Below are positions 12,501 to 53,802 of a stretch of 64,000 nt of DNA, piece by piece (positions within the stretch are counted from its first letter, which is position 1; each line of letters opens with the position of its first letter). The translations under genes were made by a program, and so were the position numbers. The notes under the pieces are model-generated. The model had not been told where the DNA came from. It made no database searches and was given only the letters and a program-made list of their open reading frames with translations. The stretch is taken from positions 19,484-83,483 of IMG/VR virus record IMGVR_UViG_3300013104_000004; one strand, written 5' to 3'. This stretch comes from a virus.

Positions 12501-13247
12501 TCAGCCCGCCTGGAACGCCACGCGCAGCATGTTCAGCGCCTCGGCGCGCGTCTTGCGGATGCGCGACGGCGCCACGCCGAACTCGCGTGCTACCTCGCCC
12601 AGGCCGCGGTTGTGGAAGTACAGCTGGGCCATCACGGCCTGGTGCTCGTCAGGCAGGTCCACGATGCGCGAGGCGACCCGCTCGGCTACCGCGTAGGCGT
12701 CGGCCGCCTCGTCCGTGCGGTCCCCACCGTCGAGGGCCTCCAGGCCGTGGTCCTGCTCGTCACCCGCCTGCCCGGTCGAGCCGATGGGGATCTGCTGGCG
12801 CAGGTGCACGAGCTCGTCGACGTCGACACCGAGCTTCGCGGCCACCTCGGAGCGCGTGGGGGCCCGGCCAAGGTCCTGGGCGAGCTCATCCTCGACAGCG
12901 TGCTGCTCCTTCAGCCGGCGCCACGTCAGGCGGCTGGCCCAGGAGGTGGCCGGGGACTTCAGGCCGTCGAGGATGGCGCCACGGATGCGCATGCTGGCGT
13001 ACGACATGAAGTGCTTGTGCAGGGCGCCGTCGGACTGCTCGATATCGAACCGGCCGACAGCCTCCAGCAGGCCCTGCGCGGCCCACGAAATGAGGTCGTC
13101 GCGCTCAACATGGTCAGGCACCCGCTTGTCGTACGCGATCTTCTTCGCAAGCCAGAAGTAGCCCGCTACGAGTTCGTCGCGCGCGCGCAGATCACCGTCG
13201 TTGCTGCGGCGCCACAGGGCGTCGAGGTTCTCCAGGTCCAGGGTCAC
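12501..13247 (-). CDS. WhiG/FliA-type (group 3) RNA polymerase sigma factor
   Basis: 248 residues from GTG at 13247. Region 2 is clear: DELVAGYFWLAKKIAY, ERDDLISWAAQGLLEAVGRFD, then HFMSYASMRIRGAILDGLKS, the RIRGAI core typical of sigma-28/WhiG/SigF proteins. An intervening segment resembles region 3 (RAPTRSEVAAKLGVDVDEL), and region 4 carries the HTH LGEVAREFGVAPSRIRKTRAEAL. Expected to direct RNA polymerase to phage promoters, probably late genes. It is translated coupled to the 13244 gene upstream. Its target promoters are not identified here. Confidence 0.85.
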   Translation of the reverse strand: MTLDLENLDALWRRSNDGDLRARDELVAGYFWLAKKIAYDKRVPDHVERDDLISWAAQGLLEAVGRFDIEQSDGALHKHFMSYASMRIRGAILDGLKSPATSWASRLTWRRLKEQHAVEDELAQDLGRAPTRSEVAAKLGVDVDELVHLRQQIPIGSTGQAGDEQDHGLEALDGGDRTDEAADAYAVAERVASRIVDLPDEHQAVMAQLYFHNRGLGEVAREFGVAPSRIRKTRAEALNMLRVAFQAG

Positions 13248-13507
13248 AGCTGGTCGTCCTCCCAGACGTCGTTGGTGCCGAACCAGGCCTCGTGCTCGGG
13301 GCGCCACAGCTCCGCGACCTTGCGGCCGGGCAGCCGGCACACCCGGAAGGTGAACTCGGTGACCTCCAGGTCGAGCACGAAGATCAGCCACGGCGTCAGC
13401 CGGGTCACCGCGGGGGAGAGCTCGCGGGTATACAGCGAGAGCTCTAGGCGCGTGTGCGCGCCGAGCTGCTTGGGCAGGTGCGGAGCAAATCGGTCAATCC
13501 AAGCCAC
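13244..13507 (-). CDS. Unknown small protein upstream of sigma factor
   Basis: 87 residues from GTG at 13507, with a strong GGAAGGAGG ribosome site. Hydrophobic beta-like core (WLIFVLDLEVTEFTFRVCRLPG) and an acidic end (TNDVWEDDQL). First gene of the leftward late operon; could partner or regulate the sigma factor, but nothing proves this. Confidence 0.65.
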   Translation of the reverse strand: MAWIDRFAPHLPKQLGAHTRLELSLYTRELSPAVTRLTPWLIFVLDLEVTEFTFRVCRLPGRKVAELWRPEHEAWFGTNDVWEDDQL

Positions 13508-13900
13508 GGGGCCTCCTTCCGGCGCCCTAAGGGAACCTCGATGAGCGCCGGGAAGCCAGCGGCACGGCCCCAATACCACCGTGGGCACGTGCCGAGCGCG
13601 GCGGAACACGGACGAGCGAAGGTGAGCATGCTCACGCCGCAGATGGTCGCGATCATCGGAACCCCTCGGGTATCACGCGCGCGGGCGCCACCCAGGCGGC
13701 GCACAGCCGCTCCACTGAATCGCGTCAAGAGTTGGGCAGGGCTTGTCAGCCGAACGGCCTAATCGGGGGCCGCCGTCCGAGGCAACTGACTTGTGTGTAA
13801 CCTCGCCCTCGAACCGCTTCGAGACAGTCTTCGAGGCGTCGAGCTCGCGACGGAAGGGCACCCTGCCCGACCGCATGCGCTACCCGAATGGAGTCCAGCA

Positions 13901-13978
13901 ATGCAGCTTGGCCACGATCGTCAGACCCCCGTTCGGGATCAGCGCTCCCGTCGCCGCCAGACCGCTACCGCGGCCTGA
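13901..13978 (+). CDS. Possible 25-residue peptide
   Basis: ATG preceded by GGAG at eight bases encodes MQLGHDRQTPVRDQRSRRRQ and five more residues; very basic. It lies in a leader-like region and could be a leader peptide or chance. Low confidence. Confidence 0.2.
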   Translation: MQLGHDRQTPVRDQRSRRRQTATAA

Positions 13979-14108
13979 GCCTCGGCCTAGCCGGCCCACC
14001 CCCAAAGCCACCGCCCCGGCGCTTCGACGCGCCGTAAGCGGCATCGAGCGCGCGCCCTCATCGGCTGCGCGCTCACCCCCGCGCGCCCTCTGCTGGGCCG
14101 GGAGCACC

Positions 14109-14125
14109 TTGAGAACTCAACAGTG
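14109..14125 (+). promoter_or_regulatory. boxA-like rRNA leader element
   Basis: TTGAGAACTCAACAGTG is the conserved element found just upstream of 16S rRNA genes in many actinobacteria (part of the boxA antitermination and RNase III processing region). No rRNA follows here. In a phage it could recruit Nus factors for antitermination of the rightward transcript. Confidence 0.55.
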
Positions 14126-14373
14126 ACGACGGAATCGACTGATCCCCCGGCCGTGCGACGACTCTTCGGACGAGCGAGGCTGATGCCCCGGTGGGGCCGC
14201 TTGGAGACAGCGATGACGGGCGCGGCTTCCTCGGAATCCGACTGGACATCTGAACACCGTGGAAGCCGCGCCGCCCCTAACCACTCGTTGCACGGCATTT
14301 GCACGCCGTGACGCGAGCGAACACCCCAACGTACCGCCCCCGAGGCATAACACCTATGTCTAGTCAGGAAACT

Positions 14374-14394
14374 CTCAGCACGTGCTCACAGCGG
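14374..14394 (+). promoter_or_regulatory. Dispersed motif copy upstream of 14437 operon
   Basis: CTCAGCACGTGCTCACAGCG lies 45 bases before the first gene and just downstream of promoter-like sequence (CATAAC and TATGTC at 14345-14360). Position is right for an operator that blocks transcription start or early elongation. Confidence 0.5.
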
Positions 14395-14436
14395 CACACT
14401 GAGCAACACCGGCGCCAAGGTGTCAGGGTGGAATGC

Positions 14437-14676
14437 ATGACTAGCGTGAGACAGGCAGCCGAGTTCATCGTCCCGGCAGCGCCCCGCCGCTACCGGCGGG
14501 CACCGCGCGCGCAGCGCACCACCGCGACTGGCATCCGGCGACGACAGATCCCGGCGGCCGCAGTCTCGACCGCCCTCCAGCTCGCTGGCGGCGACGCGTC
14601 CCGGTTGCTATTCGATGGCGACGGCTCGGTCTACGTCCTCAACTCCCCGCGCCGTCAGGCCGATGGGACGGCATGA
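14437..14676 (+). CDS. Basic small protein, possible DNA-binding
   Basis: 79 residues from ATG at 14437 (a GTG nine bases upstream is an alternative). Strongly basic centre (PRRYRRAPRAQRTTATGIRR) followed by AVSTALQLAGGDASRLLFDG, which has a weak HTH look. First gene after the 14374 operator-like site, so a regulator is plausible. Overlaps the lipoprotein start by four bases. Confidence 0.55.
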   Translation: MTSVRQAAEFIVPAAPRRYRRAPRAQRTTATGIRRRQIPAAAVSTALQLAGGDASRLLFDGDGSVYVLNSPRRQADGTA

Positions 14677-15002
14677 GGACTCGACTAGCGATCACCCTTC
14701 CCCTGCTCACCCTGGCCCTCGCGGCCTGTTCGGGCGGCACGCCCGCCGCCGCGCCGACGGCCGCCGCCGACGCGAATGAGGCCGCGTACCTCGCCGCCGC
14801 CAGCGCGTACCCAGACCTGGCCGACCTCAGCGACGACGAGATCCTGAAGCCCGCCTACCTGATCTGCCGGGAGCTCGCCGCCGGCCGTATCGCGAGCGAG
14901 GGCACGCTCACCTGGGCGGCCGGCAATCTCGACGTCACGCCGGTGAACACCGTCGCCGGGCTGAAGGCCACGACGCTCTGCCCCGACTGGTACAAGGGCT
15001 GA
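14673..15002 (+). CDS. Lipoprotein with DUF732-like domain
   Basis: 109 residues. Signal peptide with lipobox: MRTRLAITLPLLTLALAACS, Cys at residue 19. The mature part (AYLAAASAYPDLADLSDDEI ... AYLICRELAAGRI ... LCPDWYKG) has the two conserved Cys and the helical pattern of DUF732 secreted proteins of actinobacteria. Surface-anchored lipoproteins made from a prophage often alter the host surface or exclude other phages; that role is inferred. Followed at once by a strong terminator, so the two-gene unit is self-contained. Confidence 0.75.
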   Translation: MRTRLAITLPLLTLALAACSGGTPAAAPTAAADANEAAYLAAASAYPDLADLSDDEILKPAYLICRELAAGRIASEGTLTWAAGNLDVTPVNTVAGLKATTLCPDWYKG

Positions 15003-15010
15003 GACGAACG

Positions 15011-15042
15011 AAGGCCCCGCCCGGATGATCGGGCGGGGCCTT
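15011..15042 (+). terminator. Strong terminator after lipoprotein gene
   Basis: AAGGCCCCGCCCG (15011-15023) pairs with CGGGCGGGGCCTT (15030-15042), a 13-bp stem with a six-base loop. Symmetrical, so it can end both the rightward 14437-15002 unit and the leftward unit ending at 15053. Confidence 0.85.
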
Positions 15043-15052
15043 CGGCTGGACC

Positions 15053-18400: not shown

Positions 18401-18554
18401 GGCCCAAGGCTGGCACCGGGTAAGCCCCCTGCCGGTCAAGCACCTACAGAGCGGGACGACGTGAGGCCTGCGAGCACCAGTAGCGCTGCTGGTGCTGAGC
18501 CTGGCTGACCTCCTCGTCCGACGCAGAGACCTAGCGAACCAGCACGGCGCTGAC

Positions 18555-20849: not shown

Positions 20850-20974
20850 GCGATTCCGCCACCGTGAGCACCTGCCCACAGATCCACTGCACCCCGGTCC
20901 GCCCTTCGGCGCCGGGGTTGCTTGTTGATGAGGGCCGCGTTCGCGGCACACGACGTCCCTTGAAAGGGGAGCAC
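20850..20974 (+). promoter_or_regulatory. Leader of ardA: motif copy, hairpin and TTGCTT box E
   Basis: GTGAGCACCTGCCCACAGAT (20863-20882) is one of the best copies of the dispersed motif. Next come CCCGGTCC/GCCGGGG pairing and the box TTGCTTGTTGATGAG (20918-20932), followed by GCCGCG-TT-CGCGGC. This places operator-like and promoter-like signals together in front of ardA. Confidence 0.6.
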
Positions 20975-21571
20975 GTGAGCACCACGACGACTGACACGAC
21001 GCCTCGCGTCTGGATCGGATCCCTGGCCGCCTACAACGCTGGCGACCTGCTGGGCGACTGGTTCGAGGCGATCGACTGCCCGACCGACGCTACCGAGTGG
21101 GTCACGCAGATGATCGCCCGCGGGCAGATCCCCGCCGGCGACGACTGGTACCTGACCGCCCTCATTCAGCGCCACGAGGAGATCTGGGTCTTCGACCACG
21201 ACAACTTCCTCGGCCTGCTGAAGGGCGAGTGCTCGCCTTCCGAGGCCCAGCGCCTGGCCCAGCTGCTCGACGACGTGCAGGACGACCAGCGCGCCGCCTT
21301 CGGCGCCTGGGTCGGTGAGGGCAACGAGCCCGACACCTTCGAGGACCACTTCCATGGCGTCCACGAGTCCTTCCGGGACTACCTCAACGACTTCGTGCCC
21401 GACGTGCCGGACGAGCGTCCGCCGTCGTGGGACCACGAGGCCTGCGCCCGCCACGACGCCGCCGAGTTCTTCCGGCGGTACTTCGACTGGGCGGCCTACG
21501 TGCGCGAGATGGAGCACGAGTACACCGTCATCCGCCTGGGAACCGACCAGTACGCGGTGTTCTCCGCATGA
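20975..21571 (+). CDS. ardA: ArdA-family antirestriction protein
   Basis: 198 residues from GTG with AAGGGGA ribosome site. The opening RVWIGSLAAYNAGDLLGDWF is the ArdA signature (xYxxDLAAYNxGxLxGxWxD). Later features also fit: IWVFDHDNFLGLLKGE, the acidic FEDHFHGVHESFRDYL, and the C-terminal EFFRRYFDWAAYVREME...TDQYAVFSA. ArdA proteins mimic B-form DNA with their acidic surface and block type I restriction enzymes, protecting incoming phage DNA. It has its own leader with the TTGCTT box and a motif copy, which fits early expression. Confidence 0.88.
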   Translation: MSTTTTDTTPRVWIGSLAAYNAGDLLGDWFEAIDCPTDATEWVTQMIARGQIPAGDDWYLTALIQRHEEIWVFDHDNFLGLLKGECSPSEAQRLAQLLDDVQDDQRAAFGAWVGEGNEPDTFEDHFHGVHESFRDYLNDFVPDVPDERPPSWDHEACARHDAAEFFRRYFDWAAYVREMEHEYTVIRLGTDQYAVFSA

Positions 21572-26052: not shown

Positions 26053-26549
26053 TCGAGATCCTCATCGAGCGTGACCCCGACAGCTTGACCGACGTCACGC
26101 TCTTCATCGACGGCGAGGAGGTCCCCGCCCGGGAGATCGACTACCGGCACATCGACCCCGGCGTCGGCTACCTGTTGTCGGAGTGGCGGGAGGACCGCGC
26201 CGACATCAAGGCGGCTGGCCACAGTCGCGCGTTCACCGCGGCGGCACTCGCAGCGCACGACGCGGCCGAGCGGTCCCCGTACATCGAGGATGACCTGGCC
26301 GAGCCGCTGTACGAGAAGTGCGCCGAGTGCCACCTCTTCGTCGAGCCGAACAGCTCGCACGACAGCGCGGACCCCGAGTACGCAGCCACGCTCGCCGAGT
26401 ACGTGCACCTGCATCGCGGCGACAAGGCGGACGACGAGCTCGACGCGAGCCACGAGGCCCGCCCTTCCGGCGAGATCGCCAACCTCACCCAGTGGCGCAT
26501 GTACGGCCCCGAGGCCATGCGCGCCCGCTTCAACCCACGAGAGGAGTGA
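26049..26549 (+). CDS. Unknown protein upstream of Ku
   Basis: 166 residues from GTG. LIERDPDSLTDVTLFIDGEEV at the start and a later CAECHLF zinc half-site with H residues (HDSADPEY...YVHLHRGD). No family recognised. Coupled to its upstream neighbour. Confidence 0.65.
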   Translation: MIEILIERDPDSLTDVTLFIDGEEVPAREIDYRHIDPGVGYLLSEWREDRADIKAAGHSRAFTAAALAAHDAAERSPYIEDDLAEPLYEKCAECHLFVEPNSSHDSADPEYAATLAEYVHLHRGDKADDELDASHEARPSGEIANLTQWRMYGPEAMRARFNPREE

Positions 26550-26553
26550 CCGC

Positions 26554-27378
26554 ATGGCCAACGTCGCATCTGGCGTCGCGCTGAGCTTCGGGCTCATCAC
26601 CGCGTCCGTGTCCATCCAGGCAGCCCTGGAGGCCAAGGCCAAGACGGGCAACGTCATGGTCTGCGACACCGGACACCCGCCGCACCAGATCCGCGCACCC
26701 CGCGTGTGTGACGAGTGCAACGGCGAGGTGCCCTACCAGCAGCTGAAGAAGGCACGGCCCGTCGACGGCGGGCTCGTGGTCCTGGAACGGGAGGAGATCG
26801 AGCAGGCGTCCGTCGACGCCACGAAGTTCAAGAAGAAGGCCGGTGTCACCGCGCACCCGGTCGAGCAGGTCCAGGTCCACACCGCGACCGGCGAGAAGAT
26901 GTACTACCTCACGCCCGACAAGGGCCACGAGGACGGGTACACGACGCTCCTGGCCCTGGTGCTGAACCACCCGGAGCTCGCGTTCGTCACGCAGTGGACG
27001 CCGCGCACCGCGCTGGGCCAGTTCCAGCTGATCGTCCACGACGGCGTGCTCGCCTTCCAGGAGCGCACCGAGTCAGCCGGTTCCGTCCGGCCGGCGCCCG
27101 TGCTCGACCTCACGGTGAACGACGCCCTGGTCGGGCTCGCTGAGCAGGTGCTGGCGATGCCCGCGTCTGTCAGCGACTACGACCCGGCGACGTACCGGGA
27201 CGGCTACGAGGACCGCCTGGCCGCGATCATCGCGGGCAAGGAGGTCGTGGCTGCCACGACGACGAGCGCCACACCCATCGCGCCCGCGTCCGACCTGATG
27301 GAGAAGCTCCGCGCCCAGGTCGCCGCGGCGGCCCCGGCGCCGAAGCGGCGGGCCACGAGGAAGAAGGTGGCCGCATGA
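26554..27378 (+). CDS. ku: Phage Ku-like DNA-end-binding protein
   Basis: 274 residues; ATG after GAGAGGAGTGACC. Prokaryotic Ku features: the start (SGVALSFGLITASVSIQAA) matches the xGxIxFGLVxIPV opening, VCDECNGEVPYQQLKKA matches the R(V)CxxCG-E-V segment, DGGLVVLEREEIE matches the YVxxxDEEL part, KMYYLTPDKG and the C-terminal DYDPATYRDGYEDRLAAIIAGK match the conserved Ku core. Ku dimers encircle broken DNA ends and recruit a ligase in non-homologous end joining. Ku genes are known in a few mycobacteriophages, where they help join cos ends. The basic tail KRRATRKKVAA is typical. A ligase follows two genes on. Confidence 0.85.
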   Translation: MANVASGVALSFGLITASVSIQAALEAKAKTGNVMVCDTGHPPHQIRAPRVCDECNGEVPYQQLKKARPVDGGLVVLEREEIEQASVDATKFKKKAGVTAHPVEQVQVHTATGEKMYYLTPDKGHEDGYTTLLALVLNHPELAFVTQWTPRTALGQFQLIVHDGVLAFQERTESAGSVRPAPVLDLTVNDALVGLAEQVLAMPASVSDYDPATYRDGYEDRLAAIIAGKEVVAATTTSATPIAPASDLMEKLRAQVAAAAPAPKRRATRKKVAA

Positions 27379-27638
27379 GCATGACGACCGACGCGTACGC
27401 CTGCCGGTACGTGGTCGACGGCACCGACACCGACGGCACGGTGTGGAACCGATGCCTCGTCCATGACGAGCTGGCGCCCTCGAACGAGGCGCCATGCTCC
27501 GACGCCGGCGCCGACGATGCGGTGCGCAGGTGCCCTGAGTGCGACGCCGACATGCACCTCGTGCCCTACAACTTCAACGGCTTCGAGCACACCGACTGGG
27601 GCCTCGCCTGCACCGACTGCGACTACCACGACCTCTAG
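27375..27638 (+). CDS. Small zinc-binding protein between Ku and ligase
   Basis: 87 residues. CPECDADMHLV and CTDCDYHDL form a zinc ribbon at the C-terminus, plus C11 and C27 earlier. Overlaps the Ku stop. Its place between Ku and ligase suggests an accessory of end joining, but the domain is generic. Confidence 0.65.
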   Translation: MSMTTDAYACRYVVDGTDTDGTVWNRCLVHDELAPSNEAPCSDAGADDAVRRCPECDADMHLVPYNFNGFEHTDWGLACTDCDYHDL

Positions 27639-27708
27639 GAGGACCCGATCTACCGTCTGATCCCGCGCGAGATCCGTGCGGACCTGCACGCCTACGAACA
27701 GGAGAGAC
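27639..27708 (+). other. Gap with ribosome site and open frame lacking a standard start
   Basis: AGGAGG stands nine bases before ATCTACCGTCTGATCCCG, an open frame (IYRLIPREIRADLHAYEQ...) that would need an ATC or CTG start and runs on into the ligase region. It may be a degraded gene or use a rare start. The ligase GTG at 27709 has its own GGAG. Confidence 0.3.
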
Positions 27709-28608
27709 GTGATCCCCATCCAACCGATGCTCGCCTCGCCCAGCAGCGGAGCGAGCAACCGAAGACCGCTCGACCTCGGCCACCTCGCCACCGCCGGTGG
27801 CTGGGTCGCAGAGGAGAAGCTGGACGGCATCCGAGCCATCGTCGAGTCCGACGGTGGCTCGACTCGTATCTGGAACCGGAGCGGCGTCGACATCAGCGAC
27901 CGCTTCCCTGAGATCGCCCGGCAGCGGCTGCTCCCCGTCGTGCTCGACGGGGAGATCGTCGCGACGGACGGCCTCTTCCAGACCGTCGCCACGCGCGACA
28001 AGCAGACGAGCGGGTACGGGGCGGCCGCGCGCCGCAACCCGTGCCGCTTCGTCGCGTTCGACCTGCTCGCCTCGCACGACGAGCCCCTGACGCACCTGCC
28101 CTACAAGATGCGCCGCCAGCTGCTGCGCGGCGTGTGCGGCAACCGGCGCACGGTGCGCCCGGTGCGGCAGTCGGGGAACATCCTCGCCCTCTGGGACGAG
28201 GTGCTGACTGCCGGCGGCGAGGGCGTCATCTGCAAGCAGCTGAACTCGGTCTACCTGCCCGGCGCCCGCGCCAGCTCGTGGGTCAAGTTCAAGGCCGTGC
28301 AGCGCCTGACGGCAGTCGCCGTCGGGTACGAGCACGGGCTCAACCGCGACTTCGGAGCGATCCGGCTCGCGCTCATCGGCAACGACGGTCCGATCCCCAT
28401 CGGGAAGGTCGGCACCGGCTGGAAGGAGAAGCACGGCAAGCAGATGCAGGCGCGCCTCGACGCCCAGGAGATCTTCCTGGTGGAGATCGAGGCCCTGAAC
28501 CGCACTGCCGACAACGCGCTGCGCTTCCCGGTCTTCCGGGGCGAGCGCACAGACCTGGACCTGACCGCGGCCAGCGCCGACCAGCTCGCGCTGCTGCCCA
28601 TCTACTGA
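27709..28608 (+). CDS. ATP-dependent DNA ligase (LigD/LigC-type core)
   Basis: 299 residues from GTG. Nucleotidyltransferase motifs: I EEKLDGIR with catalytic Lys37, Ia/III RSG (57-59) and DGEIV (80-84), IIIa VAFDLL (115-120), IV EGVICK (171-176), V WVKFK (191-195); an OB-fold region follows (GAIRLALIGNDGPIPIGKVG). Seals nicks or broken ends using ATP. Its size fits the short ligases that act with Ku in bacterial end joining. With Ku at 26554 it forms a compact two-protein end-joining set; no polymerase or primase domain is attached. Confidence 0.88.
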   Translation: MIPIQPMLASPSSGASNRRPLDLGHLATAGGWVAEEKLDGIRAIVESDGGSTRIWNRSGVDISDRFPEIARQRLLPVVLDGEIVATDGLFQTVATRDKQTSGYGAAARRNPCRFVAFDLLASHDEPLTHLPYKMRRQLLRGVCGNRRTVRPVRQSGNILALWDEVLTAGGEGVICKQLNSVYLPGARASSWVKFKAVQRLTAVAVGYEHGLNRDFGAIRLALIGNDGPIPIGKVGTGWKEKHGKQMQARLDAQEIFLVEIEALNRTADNALRFPVFRGERTDLDLTAASADQLALLPIY

Positions 28609-50543: not shown

Positions 50544-51686
50544 TCAGGCGGAGAGCGCGCCCTGGCGCTGCTTCACCAGGGCGGAGTGCTCGGGCGTCCA
50601 CGCGGCCTTGTGCTGCTGCCACAGGACCTTGAAGTCCGCCGGGTCCGTGACGGCCTCGATGGCCTGGACGATCGGGTCGCCGTCGGCGATGACCTCGCCG
50701 CCGAGCGTCTCGGTGACCGTGGCGACGGCCGCCTCGGTCGGGTCGGCTGCGGGGGCCGGCTCGGCAGCCTCCGCGGGCTTGGCCTTGGCCGCGGGCTTGG
50801 CCTTGGCGGCCGCGCCCTTCTGGGCACGTGCCTTCGGCAGCGCGGAGGCGTCCGGCTCGACCGGCCCGCCCTTCATGTCGGCGGGGGCGGCCTTCTGCTC
50901 CACCTCGGTCTTGACCTGGGTCACGACCGCGGCCTTGGCGCCGATGGCCTGCGCCCCGGCGCGGAAGGCCCGCTCCAGCACGGCGAAGTCCTCGGTCGTG
51001 AACGCCACCGGGGTCTGGGCCGGCAGCAGCGCGGACGTCGACCGCAGGAACGGCACGTGCGGCGTCGCGCGCCACTCGATGCCGCGCTTCACGACCTTCG
51101 TGTCCGTGCCGTCGACGTTCTCGACGCCCCACTCGGTGCGCAGCCAGCCGATGTTCGAGAACTCCTTCAGGAGGTCCGTCTTCATGCCGCCGACGAGGTC
51201 GGGCTCCAGCCCGTCGGAGTCGAACTTGTCCTTCGTGTGCACCAGGACGACGACGTTCATGTCGAGGTTGTGCAGGCGGTGCAGGAGCTTGGCCATGATC
51301 GAGCCGAGCTCGCCCCACTGGCGGAAGTCGTCGAGGCTGTTCAGGCCCTCGCGCTTCAAGATCTCCTGCACGACGTGCTTCTGGAGCACGGAGAACGTGT
51401 CGAGCACGACGGTCTCGCGGTCGAAGCTCGGGCGCTTCGACTCCTTCTCCAGGTAGTCGACAGCCTCCAGCGCGCTCTTCTCGCCGCGGATCTCGATGTA
51501 CGGCGTCTGGGTGATGACCAGCGAGTCCGGGCCTGAGCGGTCCGCCATCAGGAAGATCGGGCTGGGGAACTGCGCGGCCCACGGCGTCTTGCCGGCGCCC
51601 GGGGTGCCGAAGAGCAGGAAGCGGTGCTTCGCCTTGCCCTCGTCGGCGAGCAGGGCGTCGAGCCCCGCGGTCTTGATCTCGATCAT
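50544..51686 (-). CDS. RecA-fold (Sak4-like) recombination ATPase
   Basis: 380 residues from ATG at 51686. Walker A GTPGAGKT (27-34), Walker B TVVLDTF (92-98), later VVVLVHTKDKFD. The C-terminal third is a Lys/Ala/Pro-rich linker (KARAQKGAAAKAKPAAKAKP) with a small helical end. Phage Sak4 proteins anneal or pair ssDNA with an SSB. Neighbours (SSB-like at 50022, Cas4-like nuclease at 52768) support a recombination module. Confidence 0.8.
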   Translation of the reverse strand: MIEIKTAGLDALLADEGKAKHRFLLFGTPGAGKTPWAAQFPSPIFLMADRSGPDSLVITQTPYIEIRGEKSALEAVDYLEKESKRPSFDRETVVLDTFSVLQKHVVQEILKREGLNSLDDFRQWGELGSIMAKLLHRLHNLDMNVVVLVHTKDKFDSDGLEPDLVGGMKTDLLKEFSNIGWLRTEWGVENVDGTDTKVVKRGIEWRATPHVPFLRSTSALLPAQTPVAFTTEDFAVLERAFRAGAQAIGAKAAVVTQVKTEVEQKAAPADMKGGPVEPDASALPKARAQKGAAAKAKPAAKAKPAEAAEPAPAADPTEAAVATVTETLGGEVIADGDPIVQAIEAVTDPADFKVLWQQHKAAWTPEHSALVKQRQGALSA

Positions 51687-52771
51687 CAGCAGTCCTTCGT
51701 CGGGTTGGGGATCAGGCCCTTGCGGTAGAGCAGCTCGGTGAGGTCCCGGCCGTGGCGGTTGAACTCGTCGTTGATCTCGGCGAGCCCGGCACCGGCGGCG
51801 GCGCGCTTGGGCCGGTTGTCGAGCCCGGGGTGCTCGATCGCGAAGGTCAGGAGCGTCAGCGCGTGCCAGGCGACGGCGGCCATGTGGGGCGAGCCGGTCT
51901 CGGCATCGATGTCCTCGCCGCCCCAGAAGGCGTTCGCGTGCCGCTGCATGGCGGCGTACGAGAGCGACCAGTCGTAGCCCTTGCGCCACTGGTTGTCGGC
52001 GTACTTCGCCGCGCCACGGCCGTAGTGCTCCGCGACCTGGGTCAGCGCCTCGACGGGCAGCAGGTCGAACCGCTGGAGCTTGGAGCCCTTCTGCCCGCCG
52101 GTCAGCGGGTTCGTGATCCGAACCTCACTGGGCGCGACGGCCTTCTGCAGGGCGAGCGCGTCGAACTCGCCCTCGGCCAGCGCAGGCTGGCGCTTCGCAA
52201 CCCACGCGGCGTCGAGGCGGGCGTCGGCGCGCGTCTTGCCGTCACCCGTGACCTCGCCATGCGGCGCGCCGTGGTGGTCGTCGGGGTCCTGGCAGATCGC
52301 GCAGGGGTGGAAGGCCCCGGTGATGGCACTCTCGATCCGGACGGAGTCTGCGCGCAGCTGACGGCTCGCTGCGGCGCCATCGAGCATGTCCTGTGCCGTC
52401 GGCCACTCGGTGGAGCCCCAGGTCGTGAGCATGTTGACCGTGCCGGCCTTCAGGCCGAGAGCGGCCGCCAGGGCCATCTCGGCACGGGCGCCCTTCGACT
52501 CGTGCCAGCCCGGGAGGAACGCGATCGCGTCGGCCGAGCCACAGATGAACCCGGTGTCGGCGGCGAGAGCGTTCCGCAGGTCGAAGCCGAGAGCGGAGAG
52601 GTCCTCGTTGCCGGTCATGCCCGACGGGTCGAAGCCGTTGTTGACGTCGTGCGCAGCCGGGTTGAAGACGAGATGGCCCGCGGCCTTCAGCTCGTCGGCA
52701 GCCTGGTGGAACGCGGGGAAGTTGAACTCGGGGATCCCTCGCATGGGACCCGCCACATAGATGCGGCTCAT
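51686..52771 (-). CDS. Fusion: nucleoside-deoxyribosyltransferase-like domain + dATP/dGTP diphosphohydrolase-like domain
   Basis: 361 residues from ATG at 52771. Residues 1-110 (MSRIYVAGPMRGIPEFNFPA ... HESKGARAEMALAAALGLK) match the DUF4406 / nucleoside 2-deoxyribosyltransferase fold with the GPMRG start. Residues about 250-345 (KLQRFDLLPVEALTQVAEHY ... AAVAWHALTLLTFAIEHPG) look like the dATP/dGTP diphosphohydrolase N-terminal domain. The two are usually separate; here they are joined via a Cys/His segment (CAICQDPDDHHGAPHG). Likely works on deoxynucleotide pools. Confidence 0.7.
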   Translation of the reverse strand: MSRIYVAGPMRGIPEFNFPAFHQAADELKAAGHLVFNPAAHDVNNGFDPSGMTGNEDLSALGFDLRNALAADTGFICGSADAIAFLPGWHESKGARAEMALAAALGLKAGTVNMLTTWGSTEWPTAQDMLDGAAASRQLRADSVRIESAITGAFHPCAICQDPDDHHGAPHGEVTGDGKTRADARLDAAWVAKRQPALAEGEFDALALQKAVAPSEVRITNPLTGGQKGSKLQRFDLLPVEALTQVAEHYGRGAAKYADNQWRKGYDWSLSYAAMQRHANAFWGGEDIDAETGSPHMAAVAWHALTLLTFAIEHPGLDNRPKRAAAGAGLAEINDEFNRHGRDLTELLYRKGLIPNPTKDC

Positions 52772-53802
52772 CGATCGATGCCTTCCTGGAACTCGGGGAG
52801 GGGGGCGTTGCCGCACACGCCGTGGGACCACGGGCAGTAGTGGCAGGTCTTGCCGGAGACGGTCAGCGGGAACACCTCGGCGCGCTGCGCCTTCATGAAC
52901 TCGCGGATCGCGACGTGCATCCGGGCGTAGTGCTCAGGGGTGCGCCAGCCGACGTCGCTGACCTTGAAGTCGTCCTGGCCAGGGCGCTCGGTGCTCGTGC
53001 CGCGGATGTTCAGCCACCGACCACGGCGCGCGGCCAGCGGCAGCGTCGGGCGGCCCGCGAGGCCGGCGTCGGCGAGCACGGTGGCCGCGAGGGAGTCGAG
53101 GCCGAGGCCCCGGTCCTCGGCCGGCGGCTCCGCCCAGAGCGCCAGGCCGCGCGAGCGCACCCGGGACTCCAGCTCCAGGAACGCCGGCATCTCCACGAAG
53201 TCGAGCCAGAACTCGGGCCGCGTGCTCGCGTAGCTGTAGAACGTCCACTGCAGCGCGTGCTGGAGCCAGACCGGCTTCACGGCCGTCTTCAGGTCGTCGA
53301 CGCCCAGGACCGGCGCCTTGTCGATCACCCGCAGATTCAGGCGGTCGGCGGTGCCCGTCAGCGTGACCGGCTCGCCGTCGATGACGGTCGCCACCGTGAA
53401 CGTGTGCTCCAGGGCGAGGAGGGTGGACTTGTCCTTCTGTAGCCACTCGTACAGGCCGCGCAGGGTACGGCGGCCGCGCTGCAGCATCCCGGACCAGGTC
53501 TGGCCGGGCAGCCAGTCGGTCACGCGGCCGTCGGCGACCTCGTCGACGTGGTCGGGGTGCCAGTAGTGCTCGAACGTGGCCAGCGCGCGGTCCAGCGCAT
53601 CCGCGGCGCCCTGGTGGTGCAGGAGCTGGAGGTGCTGGCCGGCGTAGTGCATGACCGTGCCGAAGATCGTCTGCGACAGGCGCCGCTCGACGTAGCCGCC
53701 GTCCTTTGCGACGTCGTCGAGGTGCTGCTGCATCCCGCAGTACATGAAGCTGGCCAGGTCCGACTGGCGGATCACCATCTGGCCGTAGCCGAGCTGCCTC
53801 AT
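52768..53802 (-). CDS. Cas4/RecB-like nuclease with Fe-S cysteines
   Basis: 344 residues from ATG at 53802. PD-(D/E)xK core: D153 in GTADRL, D170-x-K172 in GVDDLKT. Four cysteines, C22 (SFMYCGMQQ) and C320, C323, C330 (CHYCPWSHGVC), have the Cas4/AddB Fe-S spacing. Acts as an exonuclease that makes ssDNA for the Sak4/SSB pair. Cas4 proteins are also known in phages without any CRISPR array; none is seen here. Confidence 0.85.
   Translation of the reverse strand: MRQLGYGQMVIRQSDLASFMYCGMQQHLDDVAKDGGYVERRLSQTIFGTVMHYAGQHLQLLHHQGAADALDRALATFEHYWHPDHVDEVADGRVTDWLPGQTWSGMLQRGRRTLRGLYEWLQKDKSTLLALEHTFTVATVIDGEPVTLTGTADRLNLRVIDKAPVLGVDDLKTAVKPVWLQHALQWTFYSYASTRPEFWLDFVEMPAFLELESRVRSRGLALWAEPPAEDRGLGLDSLAATVLADAGLAGRPTLPLAARRGRWLNIRGTSTERPGQDDFKVSDVGWRTPEHYARMHVAIREFMKAQRAEVFPLTVSGKTCHYCPWSHGVCGNAPLPEFQEGIDR

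Follow-up and report, generated by a model that had tools for sequence, protein, structure and literature searches.

Nut sites in rRNA operons, nut sites in phages, and boxA elements ahead of CRISPR arrays are already known. The consensus sequence for boxA is GYTCTTTAANA (PMC5725501). boxA is bound by NusB/S10, and in Mycobacterium tuberculosis, boxC is bound by NusA (PMC6614801); structures of the NusA-boxC complex from M. tuberculosis are available (2asb and 2atw). In bacteria, rRNA-type boxA elements also precede CRISPR arrays, suhB, and some other genes (PMC7862264, PMC5725501), and the CRISPR arrays parallel the rRNA operons in that the RNA is untranslated (PMC7862264). Lambdoid phages use nut sites together with the protein N. 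To our knowledge, how the polymerase passes through the long operons, untranslated leaders, and tRNA arrays of actinophages in high-GC hosts is largely an open question, and few N- or Q-like proteins have been recognized in actinophages. An rRNA-type nut site that works without a phage protein would be a simple and testable answer to actinophage antitermination: a single short element.

We describe a candidate for such a site in a virus whose hosts are probably high-GC actinobacteria. The window that we analyzed (64,000 nucleotides) is bases 19,484–83,483 of an 83,483-base virus record. At 14109–14125 on the + strand, it contains an exact match to the 17-nucleotide element TTGAGAACTCAACAGTG from the leaders of actinobacterial 16S rRNA genes; an earlier note on this DNA had placed the element at 14105–14130, and we confirmed this location. 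The nut-element core TTGAGAACTCAAYAGTG is present exactly, at the same positions. Judged by its sequence, the 17-mer is the actinobacterial rRNA-leader element. With moderate confidence, we interpret it as a nut site of the rRNA type, in which boxA and boxC are fused, that relies on host factors only and that shields an untranslated leader from termination. Like the nut sites of lambdoid phages, it would be a nut-type RNA site that uses host Nus factors and is part of the phage leader ahead of non-structural genes; unlike them, the phage core equals the host's rRNA element, and we recognized no N-type protein. Like the elements at CRISPR arrays and suhB, it is an rRNA-type boxA ahead of RNAs that are not rRNA and are often untranslated, but those are bacterial loci with an E. 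coli-type boxA, whereas here we have phages and the actinobacterial boxA/boxC form. Among open-licence papers, we found no earlier report of the actinobacterial rRNA boxA/boxC in actinophages, or at their tRNA arrays.

The virus record contains no further copy of the element: even if up to three mismatches are allowed, 14109–14125 is the sole match to TTGAGAACTCAACAGTG in the 83,483-base record. In shuffled versions of the window, the mean number of matches (again with up to three mismatches) was 0.02, and the extended form GNNCCTTGAGAACTCAACAGTG (14104–14125) never occurred. We estimate from the base composition (70% G+C) that the chance expectation for an exact 17-mer in 83 kb is ~1e-6. This argues against the alternative that the 17-mer is non-functional in this phage, as either a coincidental match or a piece of host DNA that was picked up recently, which we consider unlikely.

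To see where the element occurs in cellular genomes, we scanned bacteria and archaea. Of the 119 matches listed, almost all were from actinobacteria, and 117 were consistent with the 16S rRNA leader element. In 61 of the 119, a 16S gene starts downstream, at a distance of mostly 115–255 nt; another 52 have no more than 600 nt of contig left past the element. Among the remaining six, three have 16S sequence downstream. One match is masked directly past a typical rrn leader (L187), one is from a cyanobacterial bin (L083), and the last is the copy L145 that is described below. Each of 12 whole genomes has 1–6 copies of TTGAGAACTCAAYAGYG and no copies of the reversed pattern. Together, the scan and the 12 genomes bear out the claim that this element precedes actinobacterial 16S genes. 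The chromosome of Streptomyces turgidiscabies Car8 has a copy (L145:2536–2552) with the full upstream leader of the Streptomyces rrn type but with no 16S behind it; instead, this copy precedes mobile-element-like genes. Also, small actinobacterial plasmids (from Streptomyces, Rhodococcus, and Arthrobacter) carry intergenic sequences that resemble the rrn boxA/boxC (hits H219–H248; for example, NZ_CP109133.1:7859–7888).

By sequence, the element looks like a boxA (for NusB/S10) that is fused to a boxC (for NusA). The 5′ half, GCACCTTGAGA (14104–14114, + strand), falls in the same register as the boxA consensus and is the proposed site for NusB/S10. We take the 3′ half, GAACTCAACAG, to correspond to the boxC RNA of M. 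tuberculosis, which is the NusA-binding part of the rrn nut site. This half (14113–14123, + strand) is the proposed site for the KH domains of NusA (PMC6614801; structures 2asb and 2atw). The earlier note described a boxA that recruits NusB/NusE; this label fits the 5′ half but is not supported for the 3′ half, which is boxC-like.

We then compared 56 phage sites to 104 rRNA leaders, after removing near-duplicates, at positions outside of the 17-mer that had served as the search query. A G at position -5 is present in 88% of the phage sites and 99% of the rrn leaders, and a C or T at position -1 in 87% and 99%, respectively. The phage sites also prefer T or A at -3 and C at -2. The bases before the core in the window (GCACC) include both the G at -5 and the C at -1, and this agreement with the boxA register beyond the core is another argument against a non-functional 17-mer.

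Besides these bases and the identical 17-base core, the phage elements resemble the rrn nut site in being on the sense strand and, in many phages, upstream of untranslated RNA. In contrast to the rrn leaders, they have no 16S, no conserved TGYC after the core, and no G-C-G-T block at -11 to -8. In the window, the core is followed by ACGA instead of TGYC, and Rfam identified no rRNA. A boxA register that is kept while TGYC is lost is what we would expect if the phages maintained the part that binds Nus factors and not the part for rRNA processing. That the core came without its rRNA flank also argues against the non-functional reading. As TGYC is missing from both the window and the phage set, we rejected the suggestion that the element is an RNase III processing site. 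Nor does the window contain an rRNA operon leader proper, with TGYC and with a 16S gene ~115–255 nt downstream. Upstream of the core, both groups fold more stably than shuffled sequences: the mean z score was -0.86 ± 0.18 for the phage sites and -1.01 for the rrn leaders. Two observations from this comparison count against a nut site in the window: its sequence near the site shows nothing unusual in its folding, and it lacks the longer (~55-nt) similarity to the Streptomyces rrn leader that ~14 of the phage sites share.

How widespread is the element in phages? In IMG/VR, the exact 17-mer is found in 70 viral contigs, versus 8 for the reversed control. Sixteen of the 70 contigs have under 50% G+C and belong to a few repeated families, and these are probably chance matches. 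The other 54 are high-GC, and none of them has a 16S start downstream. A variant with TAGTG is found in 21 further contigs (17 of them high-GC). Overall, ~50 distinct high-GC phage sites carry the element. Among GenBank phages (with E up to 10), 138 of 138, 150 of 154, and 51 of 53 matches were in actinophages, although these counts are not independent because many of the records are close relatives. The hosts of these actinophages are Streptomyces, Mycobacterium, Gordonia, Rhodococcus, and Nocardia. phiC31, a well-studied phage of Streptomyces, does not have the element, which counts against the nut site. In HaugeAnator (L274:761) and Refuge (L226:768), a second, degenerate copy with 2–3 mismatches lies upstream in the same leader. 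In MacnCheese (L278:2501–2540), a core with one mismatch (TTGAAAACTCAACAGTG) is followed directly by GGGATAGGAGCCC, which is presumably the cluster K start-associated sequence, 20 nt ahead of gp91.

We examined the placement of the element in 17 annotated phages (RedBear, Bantam, PegLeg, Coruscant, BRock, Refuge, MrMagoo, Geostin, Nocardia P3.1, Ibantik, Gilson, phiCAM, HaugeAnator, Sitrop, Keanu, Scherzo, and MacnCheese). In all 17, the element is in the sense orientation relative to the next downstream feature, and there are no reverse-strand matches in these loci. The distance from the element to the feature is 10–483 nt in 16 of the phages, and in 14, the element is outside of annotated genes. 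The downstream units are typically non-structural operons or tRNA/tmRNA arrays. In many of the 17, the element heads a leftward operon located at the right end of the genome, and in RedBear, Bantam, and Geostin, this operon includes an antirestriction gene, which is also found in the rightward block of the window phage. In PegLeg (L223) and at L033, L060, L063, L072, L201, and L216, the element is either within a tRNA/tmRNA array on the same strand or at its head; several of these phages have large tRNA arrays. Within tRNA arrays, it is usually near tRNA-Trp, and in PegLeg, it is directly ahead of the tmRNA.

What these placements have in common is untranslated RNA, which is attacked by Rho. 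The presence of the element in many unrelated actinophages, always in the sense orientation and usually in long untranslated leaders or at tRNA arrays, fits a model in which phage transcripts recruit Nus factors from the host, and it suggests that the host's machinery for transcribing rRNA is widely borrowed. If so, the proposed nut site would be relevant to phages of Streptomyces, Mycobacterium, Gordonia, and Nocardia, and also to actinobacterial plasmids.

The fixed orientation also bears on whether the element could be an operator in the DNA. TTGAGNNCTCAA is an imperfect palindrome, with perfect TTGAG/CTCAA arms and a 2-base center, and it lies in a divergent control region, as might be expected for the target of a repressor. 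However, there is just one site, and the same sequence is found in rRNA leaders. Also, conservation is one-sided (CAGTG after and GNWCY before), and the element always has the same orientation toward the next gene; both make a palindromic operator highly improbable. Another idea is that an abundant leader RNA acts as a decoy: it would tie up the host's NusA, NusB, and S10 and lower the synthesis of host rRNA during infection. The identity of the core to the host's element, the absence of the flanking rRNA-processing sequence, and the frequent location at the head of operons that are likely early would all suit a decoy. But there is usually a single copy per genome, always in the sense orientation before genes or tRNAs, and a decoy needs neither, so we give this idea little credence. 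We are just as skeptical that leaders with the exact host boxA/boxC are decoys as well as antiterminators; if they were, then the early diversion of Nus factors would couple phage transcription to the shut-off of ribosome synthesis.

If the element is a nut site that uses only host factors, then a phage transcript that runs rightward would carry it in the 5′ untranslated region. Once this leader emerges from RNA polymerase, host NusB/S10 would bind the 5′ half and host NusA would bind the 3′ half. As in rRNA operons, the Nus complex would protect the polymerase from Rho while it transcribes a long untranslated stretch, and it might also allow read-through of two hairpins (14219–14272 and 15009–15044). 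No phage antiterminator protein would be required. The idea that host factors form terminator-resistant complexes was already in the earlier note; the location of the element in many unrelated actinophages, on the sense strand and usually at leaders or tRNA arrays, fits it, and for the window phage itself, we infer transcription of the element, Nus binding, and antitermination.

In the window, the proposed untranslated leader is within a control region between divergent genes (13610–14436). G+C content by codon position indicates that ~830 bases are non-coding, from the end of a leftward ORF at 13609 to 14436, and this region has no tRNA and no match in Rfam. The first of the two hairpins (14219–14272, + strand) has 16-nt arms that are 94% complementary and a 22-nt loop (folding z = -3.1 for 14200–14290). 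The 17-mer is 311 nt ahead of a + strand ORF at 14437, which is about the same spacing as in Nocardia phage P3.1 (310 nt), and 547 nt ahead of the first convincing gene, at 14673. That the siting and the strand are the same as in other phages further argues against a non-functional 17-mer.

The ORF at 14437–14676 (+ strand) is doubtful: its codon bias is weak, and it matches no family. Still, it is the first ORF past the site, and it would encode 79 amino acids with an arginine-rich stretch and a pI of 11.8, so it could conceivably be the N-like protein of a lambda-like system. Given its weak support as a gene, and given that the first genes behind the element elsewhere (such as an acetyltransferase in RedBear) do not point to an N-type protein, we think that this is very unlikely. 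The convincing gene (14673–15002, + strand; third-position G+C of 0.91) encodes 109 amino acids with a lipoprotein-like signal sequence and has no family match. It is followed by the second hairpin (15009–15044, + strand), which is terminator-like, with a perfect 15-bp stem (folding z = -7.45) but without a run of T. To the right of this hairpin, genes are leftward from 15172. That there is just one convincing gene between the element and the hairpin, with leftward genes after it, counts against the nut site, as does the absence of a promoter-like site in a scan upstream of the element. With no promoter found and a doubtful ORF at 14437, we could not uphold the description of this region as a 930-base leader before the genes at 14437.

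The negative promoter scan also favors the non-functional reading, as do the surroundings and the relatives of this phage. The sequence around the element has no similarity to the DNA of phages or plasmids and is not rrn-like. When we used the sigma factor and the primase as hooks, we found no relatives among viral contigs and only distant ones among GenBank phages. Nine contigs share a structural protein with the phage, and none of them has the element, which again counts against the nut site, although most of the nine are fragments and they are distant. (A search with the primase against actinobacterial genomes matched mostly the helicase part, at ~30% identity, and is uninformative about the host.)

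On the other side of the control region, a divergent gene for an RNA polymerase sigma factor (12501–13391, - strand, start uncertain; phrog_351, E = 3.9e-21; Sigma70_r3 and r4) heads a leftward lysis and structural block, which also includes an endolysin, collagen-like tail fibres, the large terminase subunit, and what may be the major head protein. The earlier note raised the possibility of late transcripts, but this block runs in the opposite direction from the element, and elsewhere, the element typically heads non-structural operons or tRNA arrays. The gene layout does not support control of late genes. A rightward non-structural block begins at 18492 and encodes the antirestriction protein ArdA (20864–21571, + strand; PF07275, E = 1.5e-17; phrog_2059), a DNA methyltransferase, Ku, DNA ligase, and an integrase. 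The gene for the Ku-like DNA-end-binding protein is near that for the ATP-dependent DNA ligase (26290–28608), so the phage carries an end-joining pair. Elsewhere in the window, segments of a single ORF (51686–52831, - strand) each match another family (dATP/dGTP pyrophosphohydrolase, nucleoside 2-deoxyribosyltransferase, and a family named for endolysin), and it may encode a fusion protein.
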